From the IMG/VR virus record IMGVR_UViG_3300036853_000374, positions 1 through 21,679 of that record: a stretch of 21,679 nucleotides of DNA; one strand, 5' to 3'. Position numbers and translations under genes: made by a program. The notes under the pieces were generated by a model. The model searched no databases and was not told the origin of the DNA. It saw nothing but the letters and a program-made list of their open reading frames with translations. Of this stretch, positions 2,508 to 21,679 are shown in pieces (the stretch's first letter is position 1; each line of letters opens with the position of its first letter). This DNA is from a virus.

Positions 2508-3785
2508 CTAGGCCAAACCCGTGACCTTGCCAAAAGCCGCTTCTCGGTATACCGCCAAGGCCAATCTTTCTTCGGCCCTGATGGCGACCAGGTTGTTGAT
2601 GAAGAACGACGCGTGACTGTTGCTCGACTCGACGCGCATCCCGCCGCGGCGGAAAATTTGCGCGCAGGACCGGAAGGCCCCCACGAGCGCCGAGTTCGCC
2701 ACTTCCGACGGCGTGACGGCGACCGGCAGGCCCCAGAGCTGCGTCGGCTGCGCCGGCGCCCACGGGCCGGTGCCCAGATAGTTGCCCGCGGCGTTCTTGG
2801 TGAGCTGAATCGTCTGCCAGTTGATCGGATTCATCACGATGCCGTCGGGCATGATGAACACCGTCGTCGAGATCGCCGTGATCTGTTTGAAGATCGCGTC
2901 GGCGTTGCTGTCGGCGCCGCGCGCGACGGCGGCCGAGAGCCCCGGCAGCGTGTTCAAGCCGAGCAGATGCGGCGCGACGCCGGATCCGTTGAGGAGCTCG
3001 TCCTCTTCAACCAGGTCCACGCCCAGGCGCAACCGCGCGTCGATGATCGAGGCGGTCTGCGCGAAGTCCTCGAGCATTTCCTCGGTGACCGGGATCCAGT
3101 GCGCGATCTTCTGCACGGCACTCGTGGCCGCGGCGAAGACCAGCGTCGATTCCGGTTTGAGCCCGCCTTCGAGCACCGCCGCGGCGGCGTTCGTGAAGGT
3201 CGTTTCCTTCATGTACGAGATGAGATTGCTCGTCGTGGTGCCGGGCGCGATCAGATCGGCGACCACCAACCGCTTGAAGAGCAGCGGCACGATGCCCGGC
3301 TGGTAGTCCGGGAGCACTAGCGGGCCGGCCGATCCGGCCGCCTCACTGACGGTCGTCGCGTGCAGCTCAACGCTGGGGGACAACGAGCCCTGTCGACGGT
3401 GCAGGCCCTCCTTGATCCAGGCGCGGTACGTCGGATCGGCGATGAACTGCTGGCCGAGCGAGCGGAGCTCGCGGACTTCACGGGCCCGGTTCCCCTCGGC
3501 CGCGGCCTGGTGCATCCCGCCGGTCAGGCGTTCGATCTCGGCCATCAGGTTCGTATCGCCCTGCTTGGCGTCGATCTGGGTCTTGATGGCGCGGCCCTCG
3601 GCGGCCAGCGCCTCGAGCTCGGCCCGCTCCTCGGGGGTCCATTCCCGCCCGAGGACGGCCGGCGCGGTCGCGCTGGCCGGGGTGACGACGTGCTCGGCGG
3701 CCGCGTGCATCACGGCCTCCAGCTTGGTTTTCAACTTGGCGGCGATCGCGTCTTTGTCGGCGGTGAGCTGCGCGAGACTTTTCAT
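2508..3785 (-). CDS. Major capsid protein, HK97 fold
   Basis: A 425-residue phage major capsid protein (HK97 family). The ATG at 3785 begins MKSLAQLTADK, with AGGA about 10 bases upstream. Residues 1-115 are charged and helical (AELEALAAEGRAIKTQIDAK and flanking heptads) and fit the scaffold-like delta domain removed by the prohead protease. From about residue 130 (SEAAGSAGPLVLPDYQPGIV) the sequence follows the HK97 mature-domain pattern: the N-arm, a KRLVVADLIAPGTTTSNLIS segment, an E-loop-like stretch (ETTFTNAAAAVLEGGLKPES), the P-domain helix with VTEEMLEDFAQTASIIDARL, and a C-terminal FFINNLVAIRAEERLALAVY strand pair. The length is normal for the family. The S49 protease and portal lie immediately upstream. 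The longer frame to 4877 is antisense noise across the protease gene. Confidence 0.93.
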   Translation of the reverse strand: MKSLAQLTADKDAIAAKLKTKLEAVMHAAAEHVVTPASATAPAVLGREWTPEERAELEALAAEGRAIKTQIDAKQGDTNLMAEIERLTGGMHQAAAEGNRAREVRELRSLGQQFIADPTYRAWIKEGLHRRQGSLSPSVELHATTVSEAAGSAGPLVLPDYQPGIVPLLFKRLVVADLIAPGTTTSNLISYMKETTFTNAAAAVLEGGLKPESTLVFAAATSAVQKIAHWIPVTEEMLEDFAQTASIIDARLRLGVDLVEEDELLNGSGVAPHLLGLNTLPGLSAAVARGADSNADAIFKQITAISTTVFIMPDGIVMNPINWQTIQLTKNAAGNYLGTGPWAPAQPTQLWGLPVAVTPSEVANSALVGAFRSCAQIFRRGGMRVESSNSHASFFINNLVAIRAEERLALAVYREAAFGKVTGLA

Positions 3786-10519: not shown

Positions 10520-10752
10520 GCGAGCCCGACGCCCTCGAACTCGAACTCCGGTACGAATGGTGGCTGAATCACGGGCGGCACTGTCGGCCGTACGGCGACG
10601 ACGGCGAGATGCAGTGCTGTGCGCTGGACTTCAAGCGGATGCCACTCGACGAGCTGCGCGAGCGGGTCCACGACCTCCGGCTGCAGCGCATCAAGGAAGC
10701 ACTGGCGCGCGAAGTAGACGTGCCGTTGCCCTGGCCGGAGGCCTTCGTTTGA
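10516..10752 (+). CDS. Hypothetical protein encoded directly upstream of Ku
   Basis: A 78-residue protein from a GTG at 10516 with GGAAGGA close upstream. It overlaps the preceding stop (GTGA), and its TGA shares one base with the Ku ATG (TGATG). The N-terminal part has HCRPYGDDGEMQCCALDF with three Cys and one His that could hold a metal. The C-terminal part is one long amphipathic helix (LDELRERVHDLRLQRIKEAL). I do not recognise a family. Its invariable coupling to Ku here suggests either a partner of Ku or simply cotranscription. Confidence 0.6.
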   Translation: MSEPDALELELRYEWWLNHGRHCRPYGDDGEMQCCALDFKRMPLDELRERVHDLRLQRIKEALAREVDVPLPWPEAFV

Positions 10753-11624
10753 TGGCGAGCCCCCGCGCGATCTGGAAAGGCACCCTCCAACTCTCTCTGG
10801 TCCAGGTCCCGATCAAGATGTATGCGGCCACTGAAGCCAGCGCGACGATCAGCTTCCATCAAATCCACGACGCGCCCTGCCAGGCCCGCGTGACGCAGAA
10901 GAAGTGGTGTGCGAGCTGCGAACGCGACGTCCTCAGCGATGAGATCGTGAAGGGGTATGAAGTCGCCCCGGGCCAGTACGTCCTCGTCAACGCCGACGAA
11001 CTGGACGCGGTGGCCCCCGACTCGACGCGCGTGATTGCCCTGACGCAGTTCGCGCCGGCCGCATCGTTGCCGTGGCGGGCGATCGACCGGGCCTACTTCC
11101 TGGTGCCCGATGGGCCCGACGGCGGACCCGCCCAAGATGCGTACGCCGTGCTCGTGGACGCGATCGCGGGATCCGTGGGCATCGGCACGCTGGCGATCTA
11201 CGGGCGGGAGTATTTAGTGGCGGTGGCCTCAGGGGATCGCTGCTTGAGTCTATATACCCTGCATCACGCGGCCGAATGGCGATCGGCGCCGTATGGGGCG
11301 GATCGGCGGGCGTTGGTGTCGGCGGCGTTGCGGGGCGCGACGGTCGCCGCGAAATTGGTGGTCGAGGCCTGGACCCAACCCTTGCGCCTGGACGATTTCA
11401 CCGATACGTATCAAGCGGACTTACGCCGCTTGATCGACGCGAAGATCGCGGGGCAGGAGATCGTGCAGCCGGCCGTGGTCGAAACAGGTCGACCGTTGCC
11501 CATCTTGGAGGCGTTGACGCAGAGTCTTGCGTTGGTCGCCGGAAAGAAACCACAGGTCAAAGCCCGGCGCCGCTCGAGCACCGCCCTGCCCGCGGCCCCC
11601 GCGTCCCGAAAGAAGGCGGGGTGA
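10752..11624 (+). CDS. ku: Bacterial-type Ku protein (NHEJ end-binding), phage-encoded
   Basis: A 290-residue Ku homologue of full bacterial length. The opening RAIWKGTLQLSLVQVPIKMY matches the Ku core start (RAIWKGxIxFGLVxVPVxLY). It is followed by SFHQIHDAPC, a KKWCASCERDV element (C53, C56) and EIVKGYEVAPGQYVLVNADE, which corresponds to the family's 'DIVKGYExxxGxYVxLxxEEL'. Then come DRAYFLVPDG and LYTLHHAAEW, at the positions where other Ku proteins have the beta-barrel and arch. The short basic C-terminal tail (KKPQVKARRRSSTALPAAP) fits the DNA-retention extension of bacterial Ku. Ku homodimers thread onto double-strand DNA ends and recruit LigD. No ligase lies in this window, so the protein would need the host's. 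Mycobacteriophages Omega and Corndog also encode Ku. Confidence 0.93.
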   Translation: MASPRAIWKGTLQLSLVQVPIKMYAATEASATISFHQIHDAPCQARVTQKKWCASCERDVLSDEIVKGYEVAPGQYVLVNADELDAVAPDSTRVIALTQFAPAASLPWRAIDRAYFLVPDGPDGGPAQDAYAVLVDAIAGSVGIGTLAIYGREYLVAVASGDRCLSLYTLHHAAEWRSAPYGADRRALVSAALRGATVAAKLVVEAWTQPLRLDDFTDTYQADLRRLIDAKIAGQEIVQPAVVETGRPLPILEALTQSLALVAGKKPQVKARRRSSTALPAAPASRKKAG

Positions 11625-19422: not shown

Positions 19423-20031
19423 GTGACGTATGGCCAGCGCTTTCGGGAACTCCGGCGGCATCTCTGGACAGCGAAGGGCAAGACGGTCCTGGCGCTCGCC
19501 GAGCGGCTCGAGTCGAAGTACGCCGCCACGATCTACAACATCGAACGGCAGTGGCGCGTCCCGTTGTTGCCAACGCTCCTGAGACACGCGGACGCGCTCG
19601 GCTGCCAGCCCTGGGATCTGCTGATCAATGTCGAGACCGAATACGATCTCGTCCGACGCCTGGCCACGCTCCGCCCGGCGGACGCCGAGCGTCGGCTCCG
19701 CGCGCTGGTGCGGCGTTACACGGAATGGACCGACCGTGCGCCAAAGTCGGACACGTCGCGGAAGGGTCGAGCGGGTTCCGCAGGGAAACGCGATGGCGCT
19801 GCCCTTGCTCTAAGGGACGATGCTGACCAAGGTGATCCCGTTCCCCGCGACTCGCGTCCAGCGTACCGCCGCGCGCGTGCTGACCTTGAGCGCCTCACGC
19901 GCGACGCTGAACAACAAGCCGCCCAGTTGGCCCGATCGCCCGCTGCCCCTGGACTCCCTGGGGAACATGCTGCAGCGCCTCGCGATCAAGCGGCCGGCCG
20001 CAGTGCTCGTGCTCGAAAGTCTCGTCGCTGA
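19423..20031 (+). CDS. XRE family regulator, 3' end uncertain
   Basis: A GTG at 19423 begins VTYGQRFRELRRHLWTAKGK. Alternative starts in frame are an ATG at 19387 and a TTG at 19363. Residues 1-70 form a Cro/CI-type domain: LALAERLESKYAATIYNIER, then WRVPLLPTLLRHADALGCQP and WDLL. It is divergent from the other XRE gene, so the pair forms a switch. The frame stays open to 20031, but it then overlaps the next gene by 212 bp in another frame. The last clearly coding part is near 19740 (RRYTEWTDRA). Another frame ends at 19813, seven bases before the next ATG, so a frameshift or a different true end is possible. Confidence 0.6.
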   Translation: MTYGQRFRELRRHLWTAKGKTVLALAERLESKYAATIYNIERQWRVPLLPTLLRHADALGCQPWDLLINVETEYDLVRRLATLRPADAERRLRALVRRYTEWTDRAPKSDTSRKGRAGSAGKRDGAALALRDDADQGDPVPRDSRPAYRRARADLERLTRDAEQQAAQLARSPAAPGLPGEHAAAPRDQAAGRSARARKSRR

Positions 20032-20056
20032 CATGCTCGCCCAGCTCGAACACTGA
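19820..20056 (+). CDS. Small protein upstream of integrase
   Basis: 78 residues from the ATG at 19820, with AAGGGA just upstream. It begins MLTKVIPFPATRVQRTAARV and ends with a helix (AVLVLESLVADMLAQLEH). The 'KVIPFPA' start and final 'P..l.vlE.LV.dML' helix are seen in small phage proteins near integrases. Third codon positions are strongly G/C, supporting this frame over the overlapping one. It ends five bases before the integrase ATG. Confidence 0.65.
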   Translation: MLTKVIPFPATRVQRTAARVLTLSASRATLNNKPPSWPDRPLPLDSLGNMLQRLAIKRPAAVLVLESLVADMLAQLEH

Positions 20057-20061
20057 CCCTC

Positions 20062-21165
20062 ATGGGATCCGCTCGCTACCCGCGCGGGCTGACGAAAGGC
20101 GCGAAGGGCTGGCGGATCAGCCTCCGCGTCCACGGCGCGCTCTATCAACAGCGCTTCCCGTCGAGCACGCCGCAAGCCGACGTCGAAGCCGAACTGACCA
20201 CTGCGCGCGCGCGCCAACGCGCCGGGCATCGGGCGACGCAGGCCGGATCGCTCGCGGCGGACGTGGCCCGCTATCTCGTCGACTACTTCGCCGGCCGACC
20301 GGGCCACGCGGAACGCACGCGCCATCTGCAGCTCTGGGTGGACGCGCTCGGCCCCGACACCACGCGATCCACGGTGTCCCGCGACGATCTCGCGCGGGTG
20401 CTGAATAGCTGGCGCGCCGGCGGGCTCGCGGCGGACACGTGCAACAAACGGCGGACGGCCCTCCTCGCGCTCTATCACGCGCTCGACGGGAAGGGCGGAT
20501 CGAATCCGGTCCGCGAGATCCCGAAGTTCCGGCCGCCCGAGGCGCTGCCGCGCGGCGTGCCCTACGCGCAGATCGAACAGACGCTCGCGCTGCTCCCCGC
20601 GTGCAAGACCGAAGCGCGGCTGCGCGTGATGGCGTACACGGGCCTCCGGCAGTCCCAGATCATGCGGCTCACGCCGGCGGCCTGGGATCCCCGGCGCCGG
20701 CTGTTGATGGTGCCCGGCACGGACAAAGGGCGCGGCACGAAACCCTACACGCTCCCGCTCGGGCGGTCAGCGACGGCGGCGCTCGCCACCTTCGACGCGC
20801 GCGAGGCGTGGGGCCGGTTCACCTGGGCCCCGATGGCGCGCATGTGGCGGGAGGCGTGGCTCGCGATGCGCACGGGCGACGATCGGCTCGCCATCCGCGC
20901 GCACCCGGCGGCGTACGCCCACATCGAGACGCCAGTCCCGTACGACATCCGCCACTCGTTCGGCACGCAGCTCTATCGCAAGACCGGGGATCTCAAGGCC
21001 GTCAAAGAGCTGCTCGGCCACGCGTCGATCCGGATGACCGAGCGCTACACGCTCGCCGCGGTGTCGGAACAGAAGCACAAAGCGATGCAGGCGTTTGAGG
21101 CGAGCGTGGGGCGAAAGTTGCCCCCGCGAGTTGCCCCCCCCGGCAAACTCCGAACGAAAGCGTGA
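20062..21165 (+). CDS. int: Tyrosine-recombinase integrase
   Basis: A 367-residue phage integrase. The N-terminal 60 residues (GWRISLRVHGALYQQRFPSS) look like an AP2-like arm-binding domain. Residues 62-155 are the SAM-like core-binding domain. The catalytic domain has R196 (YTGLRQSQIMRL), K222 (GTDKGRG), R297 in PYDIRHSFGTQL (the usual first His is Tyr294), H320 (LLGHASIRM) and the nucleophile Y329 (TERYTLA). It inserts the phage at the tRNA-derived att core a few dozen bases downstream. The last 20 codons contain two arm-type repeats, so coding and att sequence overlap. Confidence 0.95.
   Translation: MGSARYPRGLTKGAKGWRISLRVHGALYQQRFPSSTPQADVEAELTTARARQRAGHRATQAGSLAADVARYLVDYFAGRPGHAERTRHLQLWVDALGPDTTRSTVSRDDLARVLNSWRAGGLAADTCNKRRTALLALYHALDGKGGSNPVREIPKFRPPEALPRGVPYAQIEQTLALLPACKTEARLRVMAYTGLRQSQIMRLTPAAWDPRRRLLMVPGTDKGRGTKPYTLPLGRSATAALATFDAREAWGRFTWAPMARMWREAWLAMRTGDDRLAIRAHPAAYAHIETPVPYDIRHSFGTQLYRKTGDLKAVKELLGHASIRMTERYTLAAVSEQKHKAMQAFEASVGRKLPPRVAPPGKLRTKA
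21108..21138 (+). repeat. Left arm-type repeats (candidate integrase sites)
   Basis: AGTTGCC occurs at 21116-21122 and 21129-21135 within a unit beginning GGGGCGAAAGTTGCC (21108-21122). The unit recurs on the other side of the att core. It lies inside the 3' end of the integrase gene. Confidence 0.65.
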
Positions 21166-21193
21166 GACGTTGTTTCCCTTTCAAGGCCAAAAC

Positions 21194-21221
21194 ACGGGTT
21201 CGAATCCCGTTGGGGACGCCA
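21194..21221 (+). other. tRNA 3'-end fragment, att core
   Basis: This reads as the T arm and 3' acceptor strand of a tRNA: stem ACGGG/CCCGT around TTCGAAT (21194-21210), acceptor strand TGGGGAC, discriminator G and encoded CCA (21219-21221). The matching 5' half (GTCCCCA about 70 bases upstream) is absent because the integrase gene lies there. It is therefore an att core from a tRNA gene, not a functional tRNA. Confidence 0.85.
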
Positions 21222-21284
21222 GTCTTTCCGGCCTAAACCCGCAGACGTGGACGGATCCAACCACGCCGCAACACGCCACAACGA

Positions 21285-21314
21285 GGGGCGAAAGTTGCCA
21301 CTGAAGTTGCCCCC
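21285..21314 (+). repeat. Right arm-type repeats (candidate integrase sites)
   Basis: GGGGCGAAAGTTGCC (21285-21299) is identical to the left arm unit, and a second AGTTGCCCCC follows at 21305-21314. The core lies between the two arms. Confidence 0.65.
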
Positions 21315-21349
21315 GCACGGCCGCGTCCGCACCCGCCGATACGCTGACC

Positions 21350-21679
21350 GTGACGCCCAGAACAATCGGTCTCGCCTCGCTCGCGATCGGCGGCGTGCTC
21401 CTGGCCTGGACCTGTGCCCCGCCGACCCATCCCGACACGACGCCGCCGGCCCCGCCGGCAGCCCCGGCCACGGCGATCGCGCTGACGGTCGACACGGCCA
21501 CGAGCAATCACGAGAGCCTGTTGAACATCCGCGTCACCTCCGCCACCGGCGCCGGCGTGCCCGATCAGATCGTCACGTTGACCACCTCGTCGGGCACGGT
21601 GAATCATCCGACCCTCGCGACCGGGATCCAAGGGACCGCGCAAGCGATGCTGACCACCGAGGCGGATGCGACCGTCACC
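21350..21679 (+). CDS. Secreted Ig-like domain protein, C-terminus off the right edge
   Basis: The frame from a GTG at 21350 stays open to the window edge (110 residues). An N-terminal hydrophobic stretch (IGLASLAIGGVLLAWTCAPP) looks like a signal peptide, with a Cys that is not in a classic lipobox. A Pro/Thr/Ala linker follows, then a bacterial Ig-like (Big_1/invasin-type) domain: IALTVDTATSNHESLLNIRV, GVPDQIVTLTTSSGTV, GTAQAMLTTEADATVT. If the att site is attP this is a phage gene near the tail end. If the window crosses an integration junction it is host DNA. Confidence 0.6.
   Translation, partial: MTPRTIGLASLAIGGVLLAWTCAPPTHPDTTPPAPPAAPATAIALTVDTATSNHESLLNIRVTSATGAGVPDQIVTLTTSSGTVNHPTLATGIQGTAQAMLTTEADATVT

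Follow-up and report, generated by a model that had tools for sequence, protein, structure and literature searches.

The stretch of DNA analysed here, referred to as the window, comprises all 21,679 bp of a linear IMG/VR record. Genes for a phage head module (terminase, portal, S49 protease and capsid) occupy its minus strand; it also has a tail-fibre-like gene that runs off the record at the left end and, at the right end, an integrase gene oriented toward an att region with a tRNA-derived core, beyond which an Ig-like gene begins. No complete tRNA is present in the window, and the record ends 458 bp past the core, its right edge joined to its left edge by neither a circular contig nor a read. 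The features of the right end are as follows.

20062-21165, plus strand: tyrosine integrase gene, 367 aa (Pfam PF00589, E 8e-16; PHROG integrase)
21108-21122, plus strand: left arm, unit 1, inside the 3' end of the integrase gene (exact repeat; left-right shuffle test)
21129-21135, plus strand: left arm, unit 2 (AGTTGCC), 13 bp after unit 1, start-to-start
21176-21221, plus strand: 46-bp core, the part of tRNA-Glu(TTC) that reaches from anticodon stem to CCA (identity with tRNA-Glu of Acidobacteria MAGs)
21285-21299, plus strand: right arm, unit 1 (exact repeat; left-right shuffle test)
21305-21311, plus strand: right arm, unit 2 (AGTTGCC), 12 bp after unit 1, start-to-start
21350-21679, plus strand: incomplete Ig-like (Big_1) gene, of which the 5' part, with a signal-like N-terminus, is present before the record stops (Pfam Big_1, E 1.2e-4, short of the curated cut-off)

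Elsewhere on this phage record lies a gene for a Ku70/Ku80 beta-barrel (end-joining) protein (10557-11624, plus strand; Pfam PF02735, E 2e-32). Just upstream of the integrase gene, and preceded by an HTH-like gene, is a small ORF (19820-20056, plus strand), a candidate regulator or directionality factor, whose C-terminal end (..LESLVADMLAQLEH) resembles that of a relative (L209, 5173-5508, plus strand; ..IETLVDDMLDELEGRHP). Among 50 records with relatives of the terminase (L002 plus 49 of the 80 loci), 13 matched the integrase; G003, whose terminase is the closest (90%), matches neither the window integrase nor the att region.

The arms were characterized by their repeats. The 15-mer GGGGCGAAAGTTGCC has one copy left of the core, at 21108-21122, inside the final codons of the integrase gene, and one to its right, at 21285-21299, with no other copy in the window even when three mismatches are allowed, and a further 13-mer, AAGTTGCCCCCGC, is common to 21115-21127 and 21304-21316. 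When the 130 bp left of the core were compared, ungapped, with the 160 bp to its right, the best match scored 15, a value reached by none of 200 dinucleotide shuffles (mean 7.8, maximum 11). The right-hand pair alone (score 8) is unremarkable, scores of at least 8 being found in 28 of 300 random 160-mers of the window, and the 15-mer alone occurs in 39 stretches in viral contigs. An earlier note on this DNA had described an identical 15-bp unit left and right of the core, each copy followed 12-13 bp later by a second AGTTGCC; these coordinates are as it gave them, the match is beyond chance, and the spacing is 13 bp on the left and 12 bp on the right. The core itself, first given as 21194-21221, had to be extended to the 46 bp at 21176-21221, and the overlap of the left arm with the integrase gene had gone unmentioned in the note.

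Regarding the identity of this core, an exact 32-mer of it was found in 39 genome loci. Its presence within intact host tRNA genes had been set beforehand as a check, and 35 of the 39 loci end a complete tRNA-Glu(TTC) there, as identified by ARAGORN, the other four being L173, L177 (contig edge), L194 and L196. All 46 letters are present, by our own reading, in 13 of the 39 loci, every one titled Acidobacteria or Acidobacteriota. The host 5' half of the tRNA-Glu is absent from the window, and an anticodon-centred fragment of this kind is one of the crossover classes described for tRNA-gene islands (PMC4383910).

The same core is carried by other phages. A 30-mer of it occurs in nine viral stretches, none of which holds a complete tRNA, while an integrase relative is present in the records of seven of them. 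Seven phage types, with edge or single differences in the core, were defined: the window, G052/G053, G054/G055, G056, G057, G058 and G051. The last was kept for its site, its record having no integrase match, and G059 was left out, as it has no integrase match and a different upstream sequence. By eye, repeats stand left and right of the core in all seven types, and in six of them the left-right match beats all 200 shuffles; G056 fails this test, its score being reached by 67 of 200. The units vary among the phages (AAAGTTGCC, GCGAAACTnCCCACC, AAAAGTTGCCAG, AGAAGTTGTCCC, GAAGCTGTCCC, AAAGGTTAGCAG), with same-phage scores of 13-17 in the six passing types against cross-phage scores among the seven of 6-10, except for one of 14 between the close pair G057 and G058. 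Because left and right match within a phage and differ between phages, the pattern is that expected of cognate integrase sites. One further relative (G001, integrase 57-59%) stops right after the integrase, before any attP would come into view, and its ends do not overlap.

A broader survey took in 80 integrase relatives from viral contigs, seven further variant-core loci (those already in the set being left out), the window and two integrated controls described below. Candidates were tRNA 3' ends within 1.2 kb of the integrase, 44 in number; four without a T-stem were dropped, and the remaining 40 reduced to 34 distinct sites, or 32 without the two controls. A left-right score of at least 11 was found for 20 of the 32, compared with 45 of 992 mismatched pairings, a set that includes some pairs of near relatives, and 12 of the 32 scored under 11. 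Of the 20 matching sites, 16 have a left pair with 13-bp spacing, and in 19 (the exception is L334) the left match stops 42-60 bp short of the core. The right match starts 55-72 bp after the core in the window, G052/53 and L299, and 109-137 bp after it in the rest of those 19 sites.

What an integrated end looks like was assessed from relatives in genomes, where 21 places with an integrase were listed and 17 retrieved; no close relative of the window integrase was found in genome contigs. Two places were scored as attR controls, and L257, L258, L259, L260, L263 and L271 were judged by eye only. In L256 (G247) the integrase is followed by a partial tRNA-Glu core and then by ORFs taken for host genes by inspection, and in L255 (G230) by a partial tRNA-Arg core and an ORF read as a CoA-transferase. 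Both controls have a repeat pair between integrase and core and no matching repeat on the host side, with left-right scores of 6 for L256 and 10 for L255, reached by 198 and 15 of 200 shuffles, respectively. Since the host side holds no match in either, matching repeats on both sides do not come with an integrated end as such, to judge from these two controls, a small number; the far end of neither element was recovered with certainty.

Several tRNA-Arg loci showed further arrangements. In L274 a complete tRNA-Arg is followed by a AAAAGTTAGCAG pair, which made it (L274/L277) a candidate attL of the element in L255; it was not counted as such, given an integrase remnant before the tRNA-Arg and no recognised phage gene after it. 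Complete tRNA-Arg genes preceded by an integrase or its remnant are present in L277 (G230:C426, about 3260-3480), L259 and L260, and repeats of the AGTTAGCAG type follow the tRNA-Arg in L277 and L260, a layout that neither an attL nor an attR of the simple kind explains.

The right flank of the window was compared with host sequences. It does not match what follows the tRNA-Glu in the 39 host loci, and 193 genomes from the class to which G064 belongs gave only short, composition-type matches to it (55 of the 193 genomes with E <= 0.001, each match under about 90 bp), such an absence being weak evidence. A right flank that continues as chromosome after an intact tRNA, the observation named at the outset as decisive against a phage origin, was thus looked for and not found, with the same small weight. 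In a sister pair sharing the core, phage DNA lies on both sides of it, because endolysin and integrase genes stand on opposite sides of the core in G053 (43,144 bp); the endolysin side was read on G052, its 16-kb sister (PHROG 7, E 2.7e-16), in which an internal-virion/head-closure-like protein is encoded farther from the core than the endolysin. With arm repeats on both sides of the core, the DNA right of it in the window is most likely still phage. The earlier note had reached this view and had extended it to the Ig-like gene: the comparative evidence from the arms supports the former, and the latter is most likely phage DNA by position only, because it lies beyond the right arm of the attP, no relative of the gene having been found in viral contigs, phages or the 193 genomes.

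Taken together, these data make it very probable that 21108-21311 is an intact attP and that it belongs to a temperate phage whose integration target is the 3' half of tRNA-Glu(TTC) in Acidobacteriota-type hosts. This is what had been proposed from the arm-type repeats on both sides, and it gains support from the left-right match, the co-variation of the units across phages and the integrated controls without a right copy; the strongest support is comparative and lies in units that match within a phage, differ between phages and are missing from the right side of two integrated relatives. In the mechanism that we consider, which shares this grade, the integrase encoded just left of the site would bind the paired arm units, spaced 12-13 bp, on both sides through its N-terminal domain, bring them onto the core and exchange strands there, probably in the anticodon loop. 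Integration would leave the host a complete tRNA, built with the phage copy of the 3' half, and would leave one arm pair at either end of the prophage. Binding, any bending proteins and the crossover point would follow what is described for lambda (PMC4880445) and the oenophages (PMC8074189), from which we infer them.

Three other explanations have to be weighed against an intact attP. The junction of two prophages in tandem, from one phage or from phages with compatible arms, would be locally identical to attP without being free phage DNA, and tandem arrays at tRNA genes are known, as listed in the Islander table (PMC4383910); however, all seven phage types show two-sided repeats, and free or packaged DNA is a simpler source of contigs classed as viral, so that we regard a tandem junction as unlikely. 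Less likely again is that the site is an integrated end, an attR, with host chromosome right of 21221 and a right repeat due to chance or to host sequence. The short distance from the core to the record end speaks for it, as does the resemblance of the Ig-like protein to a bacterial secreted protein, yet this reading would have to accommodate an exact 15-bp match reached by no shuffle, the same two-sided pattern built from other units in other phages, integrated relatives that lack the right-hand copy, and a right flank without a host match.

The repeats might also be terminators or regulatory hairpins rather than integrase arms, since the left and right copies both read GGGGC(N)GCCCC and a hairpin can therefore form. 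Yet the units of the other phages differ and are mostly non-palindromic (AAAGGTTAGCAG, GAAGCTGTCCC, GCGTGGAAGT) while paired spacing and position are kept, which makes hairpins the least credible of the explanations considered.

The integrase has features consistent with this role. It has a canonical Arg I (YTGLR), the Lys, Arg II and third-box His, and the catalytic Tyr in TERYT; the first His is replaced by Tyr, as in 79 of the 80 aligned integrases (80 parsed of 85 tried). The structure model places a beta-beta-beta-alpha N-terminus (residues 10-57, mean pLDDT 73) before the core-binding and catalytic parts, the domain packing being unreliable at a pTM of 0.41, and full-length lambda Int (1z1g) was among its Foldseek matches (E 4.3e-7). 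The Pfam arm-binding model gave no match in the integrase, and by its modelled fold the N-terminal domain is arm-binding-like. The last 16 residues (352-367), which cover most of the stretch encoded by the left-arm DNA, have low model confidence. The integrases of L002, L213, L216 and L218 end in similar peptides (KLP..VA, KLS..VV), which, judging from the sequences, are probably dictated by the arm DNA, i.e., by a constraint at the DNA level. In these four relatives, too, the left arm was seen in the last integrase codons, with the C-termini reading KLP..VAP and KLS..VVP.

The alignment, in a set that includes L288-L367, L255, L256 and L258, also revealed that 71 of the 80 related integrases are without the canonical Arg I (TGIPP or TP, not TGLR), this column holding Arg in 9, Pro in 47, Thr in 15, Ala in 5, Ser in 2, Gly in 1 and Ile in 1. 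All 71 integrases that lack Arg I carry an Arg two positions ahead of the catalytic Lys, none of the nine with Arg I does, and in a quick tree one change suffices for this relocation (SH-aLRT 88), with the window integrase on the canonical side. Such a relocation is known for CTnDOT integrases, and the Desulfovibrio subgroup IntDes is reported to combine a shift of the first Arg with Tyr in place of the first His (PMC8138268); by sequence comparison, the present one appears similar to that of CTnDOT, in phages whose attP sites look functional. Whether these loci represent a large, little-described integrase group with one attP blueprint and a single Arg I relocation, the window integrase being on the unmoved side, is in our estimate an even call. 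The blueprint would consist of a left arm pair with 13-bp spacing that ends 42-60 bp before the tRNA 3' half and often overlaps the final integrase codons, and of another pair 55-137 bp beyond the tRNA half.

Descriptions of these phages were not found in the literature searched, which was mostly outside subscription journals. The attP reading places the right edge of the record most likely on the phage side of the host boundary, and provides an uncultured phage with a host group, Acidobacteriota, and a target, tRNA-Glu. Moreover, two-sided matching arms offer a cheap test for unintegrated phage DNA in metagenomic contigs, and att sites with different units are natural pairs for mapping the integrase residues that read the arms.

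Among known systems, phage lambda is not known to use a tRNA gene. Its attP and Int have in common with the window an N-terminal arm-binding domain and arm sites in the P and P' arms with the core between them; lambda differs in having five arm sites interposed with IHF, Xis and Fis sites (PMC4880445), the comparison with the window covering the repeats. TRNA-gene islands mapped by Islander, those with an anticodon-centred attP, are alike in that the tRNA fragment restores the gene and in an attP of about 250 bp, but Islander maps integrated islands (PMC4383910), while the window site was recovered in unintegrated form. The closest described case is the attP of Oenococcus oeni phages (IntA at tRNA-Glu, IntB, IntC and IntF), which likewise has a tRNA 3'-end core and, in both arms, short direct repeats that were suggested to serve as integrase arm sites, the repeat sets differing with the integrase N-terminus; there are 4-6 repeats of about 10 bp in that case, compared with two pairs spaced 13 and 12 bp in the window, where the left pair lies inside the integrase gene and hosts and integrases are different (PMC8074189). 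A tRNA core flanked by arms left and right is already established for such integrases, and the window site adds a further case.
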